IMG/VR virus record: IMGVR_UViG_3300020420_000042
Location: 1 to 32,086 of that record
Origin: a virus
Length of the DNA: 32,086 nucleotides
Strand: one strand, 5' to 3'
Each line of letters begins with the position of its first letter. The first letter of the stretch is position 1. The notes under the pieces were generated by a model. It did no database searches, was not told the DNA's origin, and saw only the letters and a program-made list of their open reading frames with translations. Shown piece after piece: positions 11,411 through 17,697 of this stretch. Position numbers and translations under genes: made by a program.

Positions 11411-11432
11411 AAGGGGACATTACTGCCCCCTT
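11411..11432 (-). terminator. GC hairpin after the 57-residue gene
   Basis: AAGGGG pairs with CCCCTT around a 10-base loop. It shares the ACTGCCCC arm with the hairpins at 13598, 15800 and 17652 that sit beside ribozymes. Leftward it is not followed by a clear T-run. Confidence 0.4.
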
Positions 11433-11443
11433 TGGTTTGTTGA

Positions 11444-11617
11444 TCAGTATGGCAAATTTTTAGTTGCAGTAAATGTAATCTTGCCATCCTTATCTTTTGA
11501 AAGCCAACCATTACCAAGCCATACGTTTTTAAAAGTTTTATTACCTCGCATTTTTTCTAAGATAATTTGTCTTTCGATAGCTTGTTGAGTTGCATCACTA
11601 AGATTTTTAGTTTGCAT
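11444..11617 (-). CDS. Hypothetical 57-residue protein downstream of a type II hammerhead
   Basis: The frame runs from ATG at 11617 (AAGGAGA seven bases upstream) to TGA at 11444. It begins MQTKNLSDATQQAIERQ and ends FTATKNLPY, with a lysine-rich middle (NGWLSKDKDGK). The predicted ribozyme cut lies 63 bases upstream of the ATG, so its mature message would start there. Function unknown. Confidence 0.65.
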   Translation of the reverse strand: MQTKNLSDATQQAIERQIILEKMRGNKTFKNVWLGNGWLSKDKDGKITFTATKNLPY

Positions 11618-11633: not shown

Positions 11634-11722
11634 ATAAATCGAGAAACTGTCTCGTCAGTACATCCCCATCACAGGATGCATACACCCAAGCGAACTTGGA
11701 TGTTTCGACTTTTACGATTTAT
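11634..11722 (-). ncRNA. Hammerhead ribozyme, type II (open stem II)
   Basis: Read on the minus strand: stem II 5' strand ATAAATCG (11715-11722) plus GTC (11707-11709); GAA (11704-11706); stem III ACATCCAAG / CTTGGGTGT capped by TTCG (11682-11703, one U-G pair); cleavage base A17 in GUA (11681); stem I TGCATCC / GGATGTA with an 8-base loop; core CTGACGA (11652-11658); then GAC and CGATTTAT (11634-11641) closing stem II. An internal loop (TAAAA against AGTTTCT) divides stem II. Every invariant core base (CUGANGA, GAA, U16.1-A15.1, H17) is present. The cut falls between 11681 and 11680. The 5' strand overlaps the 3' end of the coding region ending at 11712. Confidence 0.88.
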
Positions 11723-11870
11723 TATTTTTCTCAAGATGGTGAACGATCATTTCGATACGTTCATAAGCAGACAGGTGTGTCTCCACACCGTCAACAAATG
11801 TGTCTGCTTTATCTGTGCTATTATCTAGCTGATGCTTGAGATCATAAGCAACTTGAAGAATTTCTTCCAT
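11712..11870 (-). CDS. Hypothetical 52-residue protein overlapping a ribozyme
   Basis: ATG at 11870 to TAA at 11712. It begins MEEILQVAYDLKHQLDNSTD and ends MIVHHLEKNNKS; mostly helical and acidic. The start lies inside the preceding gene (28-base overlap, different frame). Its stop codon falls in the first strand of the type II hammerhead, so the ribosome finishing here would pass over part of that fold. Function unknown. Confidence 0.6.
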   Translation of the reverse strand: MEEILQVAYDLKHQLDNSTDKADTFVDGVETHLSAYERIEMIVHHLEKNNKS

Positions 11871-12276
11871 TTATCTTTTCCCTTTTCTCTGCCTGTGCAG
11901 TTAAGTTTAATATAATTATATTTTTATTAGTCTTAGGATCATGCTCGTAAGTTAATGCAATAATATCGCCTACATTAGCTTTCTGCTTTATAGATTGGAT
12001 ACTAAATCTTTTATCTCCTCTAGCCTTAGTCCTATAAAAATTAATCTTAGTTGGAACATCTGTCCCATTAAATCTAAAGATGGCTGACAAAGTCTGCTTA
12101 TCGCCTTTGTCCATATCTTTAAAGTTTACACCATACAAAGATGCAAACCTCTCAAATACTCCACCATCAATATTATTTTTATCCCACATAGTATAAGTTA
12201 GTTTTAAATGTGGAAATTGTGGATCAAGAGATTGAACCACATTATTTTCTAGATCTGAATAATTTTGCTTACTCAT
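11842..12276 (-). CDS. Hypothetical protein
   Basis: A 144-residue protein beginning MSKQNYSDLENNVVQSLD. The ATG at 12276 is preferred to the ATG at 12291, because GGA lies six to seven bases before it and the longer start has no ribosome site. The middle (AIFRFNGTDVPTKINFYRTKARGDKRFS) is strand-rich, and VGDIIALTYEHDPKTNKNIIILNL looks like paired strands. It follows the HTH gene with an eight-base overlap. Family not recognised. Confidence 0.75.
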   Translation of the reverse strand: MSKQNYSDLENNVVQSLDPQFPHLKLTYTMWDKNNIDGGVFERFASLYGVNFKDMDKGDKQTLSAIFRFNGTDVPTKINFYRTKARGDKRFSIQSIKQKANVGDIIALTYEHDPKTNKNIIILNLTAQAEKREKINGRNSSSCL

Positions 12277-12718
12277 TGTCTTTCCTTTCATAAGTTAAGT
12301 ATGCTTTTAGGTTTTGTAGAATTGTATCGATCGCAGATAAACTGCGAACACTTGGAATTCTAGATGGTAGATCCTCTTCTAAACTCACAGGAGTACCTGT
12401 CGAGATAGATAAGGCTCTGATCCTCATTGACACTTTTAGTCTCAGATAATCTGAAATACCTTTTGGTATAACTGTTCTGCCATTGATCCAATTTCTTACA
12501 ACTTGATTATTAACTTTGAACAATGCCCCTAATTCTTTTGTAGACATATCCAAAGCTAACAGACAGACACGAAGTTGCTCAGACGTAATCGTTGTCTGTG
12601 TCTGTCTGATGTCTTCAAGTGGAAAACTTTTTGTGTAACCTGCGACAGTAGATTTTTTAGAAAATCTTTTTCTTAAAAGATCATTGGGGACAGATGGTAT
12701 TTTATTTTCTGTGTTCAT
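12269..12718 (-). CDS. Helix-turn-helix DNA-binding protein
   Basis: A 149-residue likely transcriptional regulator. MSTKELGALFKVNNQVVRNWINGR near residues 60-85 is an XRE/Cro-like helix-turn-helix: two helices with a recognition helix VNNQVVRNWINGR. The ATG at 12718 has AGGTGGAGAG just upstream; the longer frame would need a TTG without a ribosome site. It lies among small genes downstream of the MoxR/VWA block, and may control that block or the divergent late genes. Target unknown. Confidence 0.78.
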   Translation of the reverse strand: MNTENKIPSVPNDLLRKRFSKKSTVAGYTKSFPLEDIRQTQTTITSEQLRVCLLALDMSTKELGALFKVNNQVVRNWINGRTVIPKGISDYLRLKVSMRIRALSISTGTPVSLEEDLPSRIPSVRSLSAIDTILQNLKAYLTYERKDNE

Positions 12719-12926
12719 CTCTCCACCTCTTAAAAGATATTTCACTATCAATAATAGCTACAGGCACAAAGCATCCTACTAATATAAAGATGGATGCGAT
12801 CGCCCACATAAGCCAATCTATGGGAGTAGATAAAGCTATATTAGTCTCTACTACTTCCAAGATTGCAAAGCCAAAGAACAAATAGATCATGCACATAATC
12901 ATTAAAAATATTTTTAACTTAGGCAT
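12702..12926 (-). CDS. Small membrane protein, two transmembrane segments
   Basis: A 74-residue protein starting MPKLKIFLMIMCMIYLFFGF. The first hydrophobic stretch spans residues 5-24, the second WLMWAIASIFILVGCFVPVAII near 38-60, followed by a charged tail SFKRWRDEHRK. GGAGGT four bases before ATG 12926 fixes the start. It could be a holin-like or inner-membrane accessory protein, but no endolysin is adjacent, so no lysis role is claimed. Confidence 0.75.
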   Translation of the reverse strand: MPKLKIFLMIMCMIYLFFGFAILEVVETNIALSTPIDWLMWAIASIFILVGCFVPVAIIDSEISFKRWRDEHRK

Positions 12927-13491
12927 CAGCACCTCCAAGGTCATTAGATAAGATATTAACTGAATGTATGTGTTTACCAATAACTTCTTGAGCTTTGTAG
13001 AACTTATCAGTTACATCCTGTCCTAGTTTTTCTTTGACAATCCACATAGGTAATTTAAAACAAATATCTTCACGATCTTGTAGATTAAATATTTTTTTAA
13101 TTAAAGATTTAGCGATCCAAATATCAATTTCATTAGCAAATTTTATAAAGAATGCTTTCTCAGTTTCTTTTATATATTTACCATAAACATAGATATTTTC
13201 TGAAGATGATCTTTTTAGTAGTTGATTATCATCTAGCATTTTGATCTCAGAATTGCTTAAACTTCTTACAAGATTTAAGTTCTTATAATCAATCCATAAC
13301 GGTGCAAGATCTTTTAGTTCCATTTGCTGAACTCTATCATTATATTTGATAGGATAGCATTTAACTACATCATCTTTAAATGCAGTTTTACCTCTCCAAA
13401 CTGCAAAAACGTCTTCATCTTTTTTGATCTTTTGTAATCTGCCACTAGTGACACGATACATATTCAGATCTGCATTTTTATCAACATCCAT
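12919..13491 (-). CDS. Hypothetical protein downstream of a hammerhead
   Basis: A 190-residue protein beginning MDVDKNADLNMYRVTSG. The ATG at 13491 has GGAG eight bases upstream; translation in the same frame further upstream runs through the ribozyme, so longer starts are rejected. It is soluble with mixed helix and strand (DDVVKCYPIKYNDRVQQMEL, FFIKFANEIDIWIAKS). It overlaps the membrane-protein gene by eight bases. The predicted ribozyme cut is 53 bases upstream of the ATG. Function unknown. Confidence 0.78.
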   Translation of the reverse strand: MDVDKNADLNMYRVTSGRLQKIKKDEDVFAVWRGKTAFKDDVVKCYPIKYNDRVQQMELKDLAPLWIDYKNLNLVRSLSNSEIKMLDDNQLLKRSSSENIYVYGKYIKETEKAFFIKFANEIDIWIAKSLIKKIFNLQDREDICFKLPMWIVKEKLGQDVTDKFYKAQEVIGKHIHSVNILSNDLGGADA

Positions 13492-13539
13492 TTTTCCAAC
13501 TCCTTTTTCTAATAGATATTTATGTGATACTTTTAGGCT

Positions 13540-13591
13540 ACCACGACATATAAAATATGTTTCGACCATGCCAAAGGTCTTCTCAAGTGGC
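13540..13591 (-). ncRNA. Hammerhead ribozyme, type I, with U3/A8 core variant
   Basis: Minus strand: stem I GCCAC (13587-13591); core TTGAGAA (13580-13586) where CTGANGA is expected; stem II GACC / GGTC around loop TTTGGCAT; GAA (13561-13563); stem III ACATAT / ATATGT with TTT loop (13546-13560); cleavage base C17 in GUC (13545); stem I 3' GTGGT (13540-13544). Positions 3 and 8, which form a Watson-Crick pair in the active hammerhead, are both changed (C3 to U, G8 to A), so the pair is kept as U-A. All other core bases are intact. It is homologous to 15740-15796. The cut would fall between 13545 and 13544. Confidence 0.78.
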
Positions 13592-13597
13592 TTAGTA

Positions 13598-13617
13598 GGG
13601 GCAATCGAAACTGCCCC
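13598..13617 (-). terminator. GGGGCA / TGCCCC hairpin upstream of the type I variant hammerhead
   Basis: A 6-bp GC stem with an 8-base loop lies between the VWA stop and the ribozyme. Its 20 bases differ at one loop position from those at 17652-17671. The flanks CAAGTGG (13584-13590) and CCACTTG (13617-13623) are also complementary and could form a longer stem that takes up the ribozyme core. No T-run follows leftward, so a true terminator is not proven. Confidence 0.5.
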
Positions 13618-13630
13618 CACTTGCGAGATA

Positions 13631-15700
13631 TTAGATGAGGATCTTGTTAAGTTCCTTGAGACCATGAGTGATCATCTTTTTAGCTGATCCCTCGATAATG
13701 AAGTGATCAAAGCATCCATCAAAACCTTTTATAAAGGCATCAAATTCTGCAATTTGGTTGTCATTCAACATCTCTCTAGGATACAACTTGTATGGACATA
13801 AGATCATACCTATGACCTCGATGCCCCATTTAGAAACAATGTCTCTAGCTTGTTGACATTTTTCTATTGAGTTAGGTAGTCCATCAGTAATGATAATCAT
13901 AACCTTACGATCTTCAGATCTTTTGGCTAACCTTTCGCCCTCTGCAATCATGGCTGAATGTGTAGGTGTTCCCCCACTACTATTGCCATATTGATATGCA
14001 ACATGATCTTTAGCTTTCATCCAATTTTGATCATGATCTTTGAGTAGATATAAATCATGAGATGAATAACTCTCTCCACTTTGTGACAAGTTTTGATTGT
14101 TGTAATATTGAGCATAAGGAAAACAACCAACTGAATATTTTACTTGTACTTTGTGTAAAGCGTTACCAAGGATTAAAGCGAGATTGACACTTTGTTTATC
14201 ATTGTTGTAGTCCCTCATAGATGAGGAAGTATCAATCAAAAAAGAAACAACTGTTCTTGTTCCTGTCTGTCTCCAAGGCTGATGAAATATGTTAGGTGTA
14301 TTAGTACATAATTTACCTAACTTTCTAGCATCAAGTTTGCCACGATCTCGATTTCTTTTAGTACCGTAACGATCGGGATTTCTAAGAATTCTAGATAAAG
14401 TTTGAGAGCAATCTGAAACATTAATTTTAGCTAACTCTCTGCCTACCTTTTTAGATTTCTTATCAATAGAACTTTTAAGATGTGGATCATTAGGACTAAT
14501 CATATTATCAACAGAATAATTTTTAGCCTGTAGATTTTTACGATCTCCTTTGTCTGTTCTTTTGCCTTTATCTTTCTGATTTTCATCAGCTATAAAGTCC
14601 TCTTTATTTTTGAAATCTTGATCAGTTAGATCTATAGCAATTGATCCTTGTTCCTCAGATGCATTTGATCCATCCCTGTCCATCTCGACAGTACTGTTAG
14701 ATGTTCCACTAGCATCATCAGATCCATCAGCATCAGCATCAGCATCATCAGATCCATCAGCATCAGATCCATCAGCATCAGATCCATCAGCATCATCAGA
14801 TCCATCAGTATCATCAGATCCATCAGCATCATCAGATCCATTAGCATCATCAGATCCATTAGCATCATCAGATCCATCAGACATGTCTGATTTATCTTTA
14901 TCTTCAAACTCATTTGAATTTTCAGAGTTGCTCGATGTAGATTGATTTTCATAATCTTTATCCTCTGAACTTTCTGTAGATCCATTACCGTTGGTATCGA
15001 ATTGTGGTTGTTGAGGACTAGAATATTTACTACTCAACTCAATACACAAATTCAAAACATCTCTAGTATTCTTACAGGTCTTTAACTTGATTAAAGCCTG
15101 TTCTAGATCGTTTCTAAGTTTACCACTAGCTACAAGTAAATCTTCACTTGATCCTACTGATGGCACTTTATAACCGCACCAATCGATATAAGCTAAAGTA
15201 TTTAGAGTGAATAAAAAATTTCTAGGATCATTAGCTTTAAATCCATTCTTTACACTCTCATCAACTGCCCAAGAGGTTAACTTTTCGAGGACATTTTTAG
15301 CACCATCAAAATGGCATCTAGATAAAAGATCTTTTTCTTGTCTAGGATCTTCAAGAGCATTAAGCATCTTAACAATACCTTTATGACCTTTCCATTCTAG
15401 CTTAATTGCATCATCCCAAGTATCTTTGTCTGTACAAATATTGTGACCTATTTCATGCAAGGCAAAACCTGTATAAACCTCAGTTAGATAATTGGTTATC
15501 TTAGCATTAGCTTTGATAGGTGGAAAATTTATCTCTGATATTAATTCATTTTCATGATTATATTGCCATCTAGTAGATGCAGTATAACCACTCCAATTGA
15601 TCTTTAATCTCTTTACTTTGAGATTAGGAATATATTTCAAAGCTGATTGAGTATTCTTTTCAACTGCTGAAACTAATTCCTGTGCAATAACATTATGCAT
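13631..15700 (-). CDS. VWA-domain protein with HExxH metallopeptidase-like domain (CobT-like)
   Basis: A 689-residue partner of the upstream MoxR-type ATPase. The N-terminal part has FALHEIGHN (HEIGH at 82-86), a zinc-binding HExxH, followed by NALEDPRQEKD, as in metallopeptidase-like domains fused to VWA. Residues about 270-333 are a low-complexity Ser/Asp/Gly tract. The C-terminal VWA domain begins with VVSFLIDTSSSM near residue 490 (DxSxS metal site), continues through SSGGTPTHSAM (the MIDAS Thr) and includes MIIITDGLPNS. Such MoxR/VWA pairs act as chaperone-like or metal-insertion machines (CobS/CobT); the phage substrate is unknown. AAGGAG precedes ATG 15700, 46 bases after a predicted ribozyme cut. 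Confidence 0.88.
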   Translation of the reverse strand: MHNVIAQELVSAVEKNTQSALKYIPNLKVKRLKINWSGYTASTRWQYNHENELISEINFPPIKANAKITNYLTEVYTGFALHEIGHNICTDKDTWDDAIKLEWKGHKGIVKMLNALEDPRQEKDLLSRCHFDGAKNVLEKLTSWAVDESVKNGFKANDPRNFLFTLNTLAYIDWCGYKVPSVGSSEDLLVASGKLRNDLEQALIKLKTCKNTRDVLNLCIELSSKYSSPQQPQFDTNGNGSTESSEDKDYENQSTSSNSENSNEFEDKDKSDMSDGSDDANGSDDANGSDDADGSDDTDGSDDADGSDADGSDADGSDDADADADGSDDASGTSNSTVEMDRDGSNASEEQGSIAIDLTDQDFKNKEDFIADENQKDKGKRTDKGDRKNLQAKNYSVDNMISPNDPHLKSSIDKKSKKVGRELAKINVSDCSQTLSRILRNPDRYGTKRNRDRGKLDARKLGKLCTNTPNIFHQPWRQTGTRTVVSFLIDTSSSMRDYNNDKQSVNLALILGNALHKVQVKYSVGCFPYAQYYNNQNLSQSGESYSSHDLYLLKDHDQNWMKAKDHVAYQYGNSSGGTPTHSAMIAEGERLAKRSEDRKVMIIITDGLPNSIEKCQQARDIVSKWGIEVIGMILCPYKLYPREMLNDNQIAEFDAFIKGFDGCFDHFIIEGSAKKMITHGLKELNKILI
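14717..14880 (-). repeat. In-frame tandem repeat encoding acidic SDDADG units
   Basis: An imperfect repeat of roughly 18 bases (unit near CATCAGATCCATCAG on the plus strand) encodes S-D-D-A-D/N-G units, with shorter 12-base variants. Copy number differs between units, which suggests slippage. It forms the acidic linker between the two domains of the VWA protein. Confidence 0.85.
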
Positions 15701-15739
15701 GTTACAACTCCTTTTGTTATATGATATCTTTTGATTAAG

Positions 15740-15796
15740 CTACCATGACATATAAAATATGTTTCGATCTTGCTAAAGGATCTCTTCAGATGGCAG
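15740..15796 (-). ncRNA. Hammerhead ribozyme, type I (open stem I)
   Basis: Minus strand: stem I CTGCCAT (15790-15796); core CTGAAGA (15783-15789); stem II GATC / GATC (15779-15782 with 15766-15769) around CTTTAGCAA; GAA (15763-15765); stem III ACATAT / ATATGT with a TTT loop (15748-15762); cleavage base C17 in the canonical GUC (15747); stem I 3' ATGGTAG (15740-15746, one G-U pair). The full consensus CUGANGA...GAA...NUH is present. The cut falls between 15747 and 15746, 46 bases before the VWA start codon. Compared with the copy at 13540-13591, stems I and II each show a compensated base-pair change. Confidence 0.92.
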
Positions 15797-15799
15797 AAA

Positions 15800-15828
15800 A
15801 CTGCCCCAATAAAAACTATTGGAGCAGT
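15800..15828 (-). terminator. Hairpin after MoxR gene, next to the type I hammerhead
   Basis: Leftward RNA forms an 11-bp stem (ACTGCTCCAAT / ATTGGGGCAGT, one U-G pair) with a 7-base loop, then UUU, eight bases after the MoxR stop. It resembles a weak intrinsic terminator. GGCAG of its 3' arm can instead pair across TTTT with CTGCC of ribozyme stem I, so the two folds may compete. Confidence 0.55.
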
Positions 15829-15835
15829 TAGAAAT

Positions 15836-17314
15836 TTAGTAAGGCATTGCATCATCATTGCTTTCCTCAGAATTACTTTCTTCAGTATCTGATGGAACAG
15901 GATTATCTACAGGCTGATCTTCCTCAGTAGGTAATTCTCCATCTTCAACTAAAATTTTGAAAGTTTTAGGATCAATATGAGTGTTGAACAATTGAGATAA
16001 ATACTCCCTGTCTGATATGTCTAGTGAATTTCCAAGACATGCCATAAGGGAAATTTTAGGATCAATCCCATCGACTAACCTGTGTATCCATGCAGTTGTA
16101 TTTCTAAAACTAGGTGCAAGAGTTGGGGCATCCCCTCGATCTTGGGCATCCCTACATAGGTTAACAAACTCAACAATTTTGTCACATAGTCTAGATCCTG
16201 TCCCTGTCTTTTCCTGTAAAATTTTACTTTCGACAGATGGTTTAGGATAGTTCACTTCAGCAAAAATTGAAAACCTATTCAGTAATGAACTGTCCATAGG
16301 TTTTGCTCCGCTGAATTGACCTGTTATATCGCCCTGTCCATTTGTATTGTCACAGGCTACAACTACAACTCCCTCTGCAAAAGGTATTCTTTTACCTGTC
16401 TCAGGGATTATATATTCACGGTCTTGAAGAACACCATTTAAGGATGATAAAATGTCCTGTCTTATTCTAGAAATTTCATCGATCAGTAAAACCGTATAAG
16501 GTTGCTGAATAGCTTTTAAAAGCAATCCATCATTCCAATATGTTGATCCATTTACTGCACCAAAAGATCCAAAAAATTGATCAGTAGTCATATCATCATT
16601 ACCTGTAATAGCGATGAACTGCCTACCTGTTTTAGCTGAAAACCATCGAGGTAATGAAGTTTTACCTGTCCCAGCTTTTCCATAAAGCCAAACATGTTCA
16701 GCCATTCTTCCACTAGGTGGACAGACACAACTTAAAAACATCTCTAAGACATTCTTTTGAGGTGTATAATGAGGATCAACTTTTGGAGATCTATCATCAT
16801 CGTAAATATCAAAAGTTTTATCAGACATAGATCTAAAACCAAATAGCTTTGATCCTGTTTCAGATCTAATTTTATTAACCTGTCTGATTTCTGTTTTAGG
16901 AACATCAACATTAGCTGATTGTGTATTTGATCCCTCAGAAACTTTAACAATCTTCTCTTTAACAGGTGGATTAGCTTTGAATTCTAAAAGATCAGTAATT
17001 TTATCTCTTAGATCTTTTAAAGGTAATCCCATGATATTGTTTAGTTGTTTGTCAATATCTGAAACAGTATTTTGAACCTGTCCAACAGGAGCAGTTACTA
17101 CTGTAGGTTTTACAGGTTGTACTGTTTTTGTTGCCATTGCAGATCCAAACTTATTAATGTCAATTCCAAGGTCTATTGCTAGTTGAATTAATTCAGATTT
17201 AATCAACATGTTTACACCTTTTGACGGTCTCTTATTTGGCTGAATATTTAACTCAGCCAATATCTCAGCTTTGAGCATTTGTCTCTGCTCACTTGTAAAT
17301 TTTATATCTCGCAT
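15836..17314 (-). CDS. MoxR/CobS-type AAA+ ATPase
   Basis: A 492-residue AAA+ ATPase that probably works with the VWA protein encoded next. The N-terminal ~190 residues are a poorly conserved helical and linker region. Walker A GKAGTGKTS lies at 212-220 and Walker B LLIDE at 276-280. ISRIRQDILSSLNGVLQDREY carries the MoxR-type segment after Walker B. VVVVACDNTNGQGDITGQFSGAKPMDSSLLNRF is the sensor 1 and arginine-finger region. An acidic Glu/Asp-rich tail follows. CobS in cobaltochelatase and MoxR proteins share this layout. No cobalamin genes are present, so a phage-specific remodelling job is likelier than vitamin synthesis. GGAG lies eight bases before the ATG. Confidence 0.92.
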   Translation of the reverse strand: MRDIKFTSEQRQMLKAEILAELNIQPNKRPSKGVNMLIKSELIQLAIDLGIDINKFGSAMATKTVQPVKPTVVTAPVGQVQNTVSDIDKQLNNIMGLPLKDLRDKITDLLEFKANPPVKEKIVKVSEGSNTQSANVDVPKTEIRQVNKIRSETGSKLFGFRSMSDKTFDIYDDDRSPKVDPHYTPQKNVLEMFLSCVCPPSGRMAEHVWLYGKAGTGKTSLPRWFSAKTGRQFIAITGNDDMTTDQFFGSFGAVNGSTYWNDGLLLKAIQQPYTVLLIDEISRIRQDILSSLNGVLQDREYIIPETGKRIPFAEGVVVVACDNTNGQGDITGQFSGAKPMDSSLLNRFSIFAEVNYPKPSVESKILQEKTGTGSRLCDKIVEFVNLCRDAQDRGDAPTLAPSFRNTTAWIHRLVDGIDPKISLMACLGNSLDISDREYLSQLFNTHIDPKTFKILVEDGELPTEEDQPVDNPVPSDTEESNSEESNDDAMPY

Positions 17315-17329
17315 AATTTACACTCCCTT

Positions 17330-17563
17330 TTAGTTGTATTTAAAAAATTTATTACCGCTCTTTAGAGTAATTGAACCTGTGTTCAATCTAAACCTACGGT
17401 AGTTGTTTATTCTAAAATCATAGACAGTAATGAGGTCTTCATTATCTCTTGTCTCATTCTTTAGAATTCCCCAAAACTCTCTTTTGCTTTGATCCTTTTT
17501 GGTAAAAGATCCTGTAACAATTCGAGAATTGAACATTTTATAAATTTCAGTTTTTTTAAGCAT
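17330..17563 (-). CDS. Hypothetical basic protein, downstream of the type III hammerhead
   Basis: A 77-residue protein (MLKKTEIYKMFNSRIVTGSF at the start) rich in Arg, Lys and Asn, with beta-like segments (LITVYDFRINNYRRFRLNTG). AAAGG lies seven bases before ATG 17563. The predicted ribozyme cut lies 72 bases upstream. It precedes the MoxR gene with a 15-base gap, so they likely share a message. Family not recognised. Confidence 0.75.
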   Translation of the reverse strand: MLKKTEIYKMFNSRIVTGSFTKKDQSKREFWGILKNETRDNEDLITVYDFRINNYRRFRLNTGSITLKSGNKFFKYN

Positions 17564-17586
17564 ATAATTGCCTTTCGTTATTTAAG

Positions 17587-17644
17587 TTACTGATTTCATG
17601 CTTTCGCAATCATCAGATCGAATAACACATTCGATGATCAGTAA
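17587..17644 (-). ncRNA. Hammerhead ribozyme, type III (open stem III)
   Basis: Minus strand: stem III 5' TTACTGAT (17637-17644); cleavage base C17 in AUC (17636); stem I ATCGAAT / ATTCGAT (17629-17635 with 17617-17623) capped by GTGTT; core CTGATGA (17610-17616); stem II TTGC / GCAT with a GAAA tetraloop (17598-17609), whose first pair is U-U rather than the usual G-C; GAAA (17594-17597); stem III 3' TCAGTAA (17587-17593). The 58 bases satisfy CUGANGA, GAA, A15.1-U16.1 and NUH exactly. The cut falls between 17636 and 17635. The short stem II with a U-U closing mismatch may lower activity. Confidence 0.9.
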
Positions 17645-17651
17645 TTTTTAA

Positions 17652-17671
17652 GGGGCAATCAAAACTGCCCC
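17652..17671 (-). terminator. GGGGCA / TGCCCC hairpin upstream of the type III hammerhead
   Basis: A 6-bp stem with an 8-base loop, 19 of 20 bases identical to 13598-13617. It is seven bases upstream of the ribozyme in the leftward transcript. On the plus strand a T-rich run (ATTTTTT) follows, so it could also stop rightward RNA. Confidence 0.5.
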
Positions 17672-17697
17672 CTAATAAAATTTTTTGCTCAGAGTGA

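Follow-up and report, generated by a model that had tools for sequence, protein, structure and literature searches.

The stretch of DNA considered here (the window) is the whole of the 32,086-base IMG/VR virus record IMGVR_UViG_3300020420_000042, which may be a fragment. It is a tailed-phage genome: terminase, portal, and major head genes lie in its rightward half, helicase and exonuclease genes in its leftward part, and a rightward primase block in between. Among GenBank phages, the best match of its terminase is approximately 32% identical. A leftward block from 17563 to 9885 opens with a 77-amino acid (aa) gene, followed by genes for a MoxR/CobS-like AAA_5 ATPase and a CobT-like VWA protein and by small genes (Table 1). 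The gaps between these genes contain four hammerhead ribozymes, and their identity, conservation, and possible role are the subject of this analysis.

Both strands of the window were scanned with descriptors of the three hammerhead topologies, allowing four Watson–Crick choices for the 3-8 core pair. Exactly four hammerheads were found in the 32 kb, all on the minus strand and within the leftward block, with scores of 36–40, whereas 20 dinucleotide-shuffled windows gave four matches of 20 or more in total, the best scoring 28. The descriptor scan and a reading of the bases upheld the topologies assigned in an earlier reading of the letters (the sequence-only reading): type III, type I, a type I variant, and type II at sites 1 to 4. 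Its coordinates also stand for the first three sites, but its type II start at 11634 lies slightly outside the minimal motif. The cuts that it predicted, 72, 46, 53, and 63 nucleotides (nt) 5′ of the start codons at sites 1, 2, 3, and 4, were reproduced. The core bases are canonical at sites 1, 2, and 4 (CUGANGA, GAA, NUH, A15.1-U16.1, and the three-stem junction). Site 1 has a stem III of 8 base pairs (bp), a stem I of 7 bp, CUGAUGA, a GAAA loop, and a U.U at 10.1-11.1, and site 2 has the core CUGAAGA and every stem intact. At site 3, the core UUGAGAA amounts to C3 to U plus G8 to A. Natural U3-A8 cores, active in vitro, and U10.1-U11.1 mismatches have been reported (Perreault et al., 2011; PMC3088659). 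At the level of sequence, the four sites are confirmed as hammerhead ribozymes.

Every gap of at least 90 nt between the first gene of the block and the 57-residue gene contains a hammerhead, and with this threshold, the claim that each appreciable gap from the MoxR gene to the 57-residue gene holds one is true. The 59-nt gap past the 57-residue gene has a hairpin only and no ribozyme. Sites 2 and 3 match over 45 nt at 89% and are paralogues, so that the locus holds three independent ribozymes and one copy. The occurrence of all circular permutations had been taken to argue against duplication; this argument has to be qualified for the paralogous pair, but it is strengthened by diverged phages in which a type III hammerhead takes the place of the type I between the MoxR and VWA genes. 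Recent duplication of one ribozyme as the source of all sites was rejected, as paralogy is limited to sites 2 and 3.

Table 1. Hammerheads, hairpins, and genes of the leftward block (window coordinates)
Feature	Position	Strand	Predicted new 5′ end	Remarks
Site 1, type III hammerhead	17587..17644	-	17635	base reading, descriptor scan, covariance model
Site 2, type I hammerhead, MoxR/VWA gap	15740..15796	-	15746	homologues in four lineages
Site 3, type I hammerhead, U3-A8 core	13540..13591	-	13544
Site 4, type II hammerhead right after stop codon	11649..11709	-	11680	fold z -3.4
Hairpin 5′ of site 1	17648..17675	-		-17.2 kcal/mol, no U-tract
Hairpin 5′ of site 2	15799..15829	-		-17.8 kcal/mol
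Hairpin 5′ of site 3	13594..13621	-		about -20 kcal/mol
Hairpin past 57-residue gene, without ribozyme	11411..11432	-
77-aa gene, weakly WYL_2-like	17330..17563	-
MoxR/CobS-like AAA_5 ATPase gene	15836..17314	-		Pfam AAA_5 E 1e-20; phrog_249
CobT-like VWA protein gene	13631..15700	-
190-aa gene 3′ of site 3	12919..13491	-
Four overlapping small genes without gaps, one regulator-like	11712..12926	-
57-residue gene 3′ of site 4	11444..11617	-

Hammerhead families of Rfam gave no match reaching the gathering score in the window; HH9 produced a weak match of 20.6 bits at site 2, below that score, and RF00163 and RF00008 found nothing in the window’s own record or in its relatives. A covariance model (R1) was built for type III alone, from 31 type III hammerheads of other contigs, and it reached 65 bits at site 1 (E 2.3e-16). 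The type III alignment is 93.5% paired and contains 186 double-sided changes compared with 48 in shuffles. The covariance check suggested in the sequence-only reading had a mixed outcome, below threshold with the public families and significant at site 1 with the dedicated model. The Rfam misses are a threshold problem and not an absence of ribozymes, and ordinary annotation would overlook these sites.

Protein searches with VWA and MoxR led to contigs of four further lineages, in which MoxR is 70–73% identical; the short contigs span only part of the block. The homologous gaps are occupied in five lineages. In close relatives, a type III hammerhead precedes the MoxR gene or its upstream neighbour, a type I lies between the MoxR and VWA genes, another type I follows the VWA gene, and a type II is found further down; several of them have one extra type III further upstream. 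No type II was found in locus L007, and no hammerhead outside this operon was present in the 59.6-kb and 44.2-kb relative records scanned whole. In the family of sites 2 and 3, both the last stem I pair and the third stem II pair are either U-A or C-G, matched in 9 of 9 sequences, and the core 3-8 pair, C-G or U-A, is equally matched in all nine. The U3-A8 core of site 3 occurs also in L005, L006, and L007, and since the 3-8 pair is always matched, it is a kept, compensated variant. Two type I copies in L001 (9895-9946 and 12075-12122) share features that are separate in the window, which suggests exchange between paralogues.

An alignment of MoxR used for more distant relatives gave no new loci. 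Two distant loci, L099 and L093, were retrieved solely by the ribozyme pattern described below, and both encode a related MoxR-VWA pair; in L099, MoxR is 37% and VWA 32% identical to the proteins of the window. Hammerheads are located there before the MoxR gene, between the MoxR and VWA genes, and after the VWA gene, and they are of types III, III, and I, respectively. The MoxR/VWA gap thus keeps a hammerhead while the topology differs, being type III there and type I in the window. The comparison with related phages, in which conserved positions had been expected, hence came out in favour of that expectation even at this level of protein identity.

To what extent such sites are spread among viruses was addressed by searching IMG/VR with two short patterns, each covering the core and part of stem II. 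At least 119 viral stretches match the first and 48 the second, whereas the first pattern with a G8 to C mutant core was found in one IMG/VR stretch. The two free stem II positions are complementary in all 102 distinct matches compared with 28% when flanks were re-paired between matches, and full outer stems are formed in 90 of the 102 compared with 22%. The first pattern was also present in 38 stretches of a bacterial and archaeal genome collection, with the stems forming in less than half of the matches. It could be argued that the sites are chance matches, or intrinsic terminators misread as ribozymes, and the missing Rfam call is in line with this; the shuffles, the mutant-core pattern, the re-paired flanks, and the lack of U-tracts contradict it, which leaves this explanation with next to no probability.

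The fetched public loci contain 291 distinct hammerheads. This collection is biased to the chosen patterns, with heuristic gene calls and with some loci that overlap or come from near-identical contigs, and the shares of types I, II, and III in it mean little, owing to the bias. Seventy-three pattern-fetched loci carry at least two hammerheads, on one strand per locus. The largest array (L082:2016-8607) consists of 12 same-strand hammerheads in 6.5 kb, where nearly each small gene is preceded by a hammerhead squeezed between the stop codon and the Shine–Dalgarno site, and the stems covary between copies. Pairs of hammerheads might instead excise RNAs of gene length, which would then circularise by re-ligation as they do in viroids and retrozymes. 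Hammerheads are capable of ligation, and adjacent type I copies of L082 often share the same stem I, but stem I changes are matched within a copy and not between copies, neighbours often differ in topology, and Perreault et al. found no circular or spliced products when looking (PMC3088659). The formation of RNA circles is accordingly considered very unlikely.

Only 21 of 291 midpoints (7%) fall in open reading frames of at least 120 aa, which cover 60% of the bases. A Shine–Dalgarno-like site with a start codon follows within 160 nt in 217 of 291 cases, with a median distance of about 25 nt to the motif, compared with a quarter of random positions, where the distances are broad; site 1 is not among the 217 because its Shine–Dalgarno site is weak. 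These data bear on the view that the hammerheads are relics or selfish inserts, in which case they would be decayed copies or ribozyme-bearing mobile elements that do nothing for the phage. The duplication of sites 2 and 3 and the L005 copy with an insertion would agree with it. However, almost no copies lie in genes, each locus uses one strand, the spacing to the Shine–Dalgarno site is kept, and changes in core and stems are compensated; a repeated unit in varied places and orientations, as expected for a retrozyme-type mobile element, was not found. Such an origin thus appears extremely unlikely.

As to the genes that follow ribozymes, phrog_1297 was matched by 11 of 43 and phrog_249 by 3 of 43, and AAA ATPases are common. 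Control genes from the same loci also match phrog_1297 (5 of 43), so that the link is with contigs carrying such modules and the effect of adjacency is modest. None of the 43 genes after ribozymes matches a terminase family, compared with 8 of the 43 control genes. ATPase-VWA modules recur with hammerheads: on the reverse strand of L075 (3175-7998), hammerheads also occupy the gaps of an unrelated module, which consists of AAA ATPase, DUF3150, and DUF2201 metallopeptidase-VWA genes. The VWA gene of the window contains a DGSDD-like repeat array at 14700-14890.

In 42 of 57 cases, a type I motif begins no more than about 20 nt past the upstream stop codon. Type III motifs mostly begin 20–60 nt past it, and this space is filled by a hairpin. 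The recurrent layout is stop codon, hairpin, ribozyme, Shine–Dalgarno site, and start codon. The 45 nt 5′ of type III motifs have a mean folding energy of -13.6 kcal/mol compared with -6.3 kcal/mol in the control, and a hairpin below -8 kcal/mol precedes 76% of type III motifs compared with 26% in the control; for type I, the share is 48%, and for type II, 1 of 5. The hairpin ends at a median of about 1 nt from the ribozyme. At least five T in the following eight nucleotides were seen after 18 of 174 upstream hairpins, and the window scan revealed no terminator-like site (a G+C-rich hairpin with a U-tract) from the first gene of the block onward. Intrinsic terminators in the gaps were rejected on these grounds. 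The promoter scan gave a lower number of sites than shuffled sequence does, and no gap of the block holds a convincing one; other promoter types may exist, and with this reservation, internal promoters in the gaps were rejected as well. The lack of both U-tract terminators and convincing gap promoters fits one transcript across the block.

A different use of the ribozymes, as regulated switches, has to be considered at this point. Cutting might be conditional, e.g., occurring when ribosomes leave the upstream stop codon, which would tie downstream expression to upstream translation. With type I motifs so close to the stop codon, the ribozyme would be partly covered by a ribosome terminating there, and at 15790-15806 of the window (GGCAG-TTTT-CTGCC), an alternative pairing is conceivable between GGCAG of the upstream hairpin and CTGCC of stem I of site 2. 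Nevertheless, type III motifs mostly stand further from the stop codon, behind a hairpin, the alternative pairing of site 2 is kept neither in L003 nor in L005, and no insert resembling a ligand domain was seen. Regulated switching is thus regarded as unlikely.

Hammerhead cleavage generates a 5′-OH end and a cyclic-phosphate end. It is probable, judging from the sequence, that the four hammerheads divide one leftward phage transcript without the help of a protein. Each ribozyme would fold and then cut itself as RNA polymerase passes. The upstream message would end in the hairpin or the ribozyme, with a 2′,3′-cyclic phosphate that would resist exonucleases needing a 3′-OH, and the downstream message would begin with a short 5′-OH leader free of upstream coding sequence. 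In this way, the MoxR-like ATPase, the VWA protein, and the small-gene groups would obtain separate stability and translation from one promoter. The frequencies of hairpins fit this proposal. Cleavage by type III leaves the ribozyme on the downstream RNA, so that the upstream RNA would end bare if it had no hairpin; after cleavage by type I or II, most of the ribozyme (in type II, the stem III part) stays on the upstream RNA and is itself a structured end. As the frequencies rank like the need for a 3′ end (type III, then I, then II), it is suggested that the hairpins protect 3′ ends as part of the design. The operon splitting put forward in the sequence-only reading finds partial support in the conserved positions, the intergenic location on one strand ahead of Shine–Dalgarno sites, the compensatory changes in stems and core, and the lack of U-tract terminators, with cleavage, the 5′-OH ends, and a benefit to the phage being predictions. 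We infer cleavage in the cell, end protection, and separate control of the genes, and the separate messages might serve stability or protein ratios.

Several observations weigh against protein-free division of the transcript. Site 4 (type II) has no upstream hairpin. The MoxR/VWA copy of L005 and L006 is possibly weakened by an additional U ahead of stem II; in L005 (11515-11569), this U is located between A9 and stem II. Folded alone, sites 1 and 2 do not adopt the complete hammerhead at minimum energy, although the centroid of site 1 comes close to it, and the modelled isolated folds of the two sites remain ambiguous. Finally, 4 of 18 consensus hammerheads assayed in earlier work did not cleave (PMC3088659). 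On the other side, the place kept at 32–37% protein identity despite the change of topology, together with the layout and the arrays, points to selection for cutting at a defined place. It can further be proposed, with about even chances of being right, that many phages share a protein-free maturation of messages, in which a 3′-capping hairpin and a self-cleaving ribozyme are used gene by gene. In such a mechanism, topologies would be interchangeable in each gap and could replace each other at one gap because only the cut between the stop codon and the Shine–Dalgarno site would be selected.

Parallels exist in other systems. The early mRNA of phage T7 is a polycistronic message cut between genes at RNase III hairpins, and its products end in hairpins. 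T7 relies on a host protein, whereas here the RNA itself would cut. In RiboJ-type insulators, engineered from satellite RNA, a hammerhead in the leader strips upstream sequence from the message; their hairpin is downstream of the ribozyme, whereas here it is upstream. If the proposed division of the transcript is correct, phages possess natural counterparts of the ribozyme insulators known from synthetic biology, and those considered here need no host RNase to split an operon. Clustered hammerheads of phages and prophages, with types I, II, and III close together and flanking genes, were described by Perreault et al. (2011), who suggested that long phage transcripts are cut down in this way to mRNAs the length of an operon or a gene, and who demonstrated cleavage of three clusters in vitro and of one in E. 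coli (PMC3088659). The window resembles these clusters in having several hammerheads on one strand flanking phage genes, and since clusters, the idea of operon processing, and U3-A8 cores have been in the literature since 2011, it belongs to a kind already known. In contrast to the clusters described then, it shows positions conserved over lineages with replacement of the ribozyme, the MoxR-VWA context, and the upstream hairpin, and related arrays have up to 12 members. HHphage of the haloviruses HF1 and HF2 is likewise located just before an early phage gene, and a 5′ end was mapped near its cut, but it is a single variant ribozyme of an archaeal virus (PMC3088659). A 2017 review called the role of hammerheads in bacteria and phages an open question and noted the tie to phages (PMC6155905), and a paper of 2023 remarked that bacterial hammerheads are enriched in the vicinity of Mu-like phage genes and of other ribozymes, without the reason being known (PMC10085705). 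In the open-licence papers searched, neither the hairpin-ribozyme layout nor arrays of this size nor a change of topology at a conserved gap were found to be described. New here are the conserved hairpin-ribozyme layout, its scale, and the replacement of topology at one gap. The locus narrows what hammerheads do for bacteria and phages and makes their purpose testable.

By similarity search, no GenBank isolate with a hammerhead array was found, and single hammerheads are present in a pelagiphage and in Pseudomonas phages. The cultured Pelagibacter phage HTVC201P (MH598802; L219:2262-2322) has one type I hammerhead overlapping the end of the annotated gp08, and it might serve as an experimental system. 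The Bruynoghevirus Pseudomonas phages DL54 and Clew-1 (L222:44918-44974 and L223:1012-1068) have one type III each, the last stem of which includes the start codon of an early gene. Eight type III hammerheads lie within 2 kb of a contig assigned to the bin of Ca. Paceibacterota (L217:4827-6838); few long open reading frames separate them, and this is perhaps a phage or a structured RNA element.

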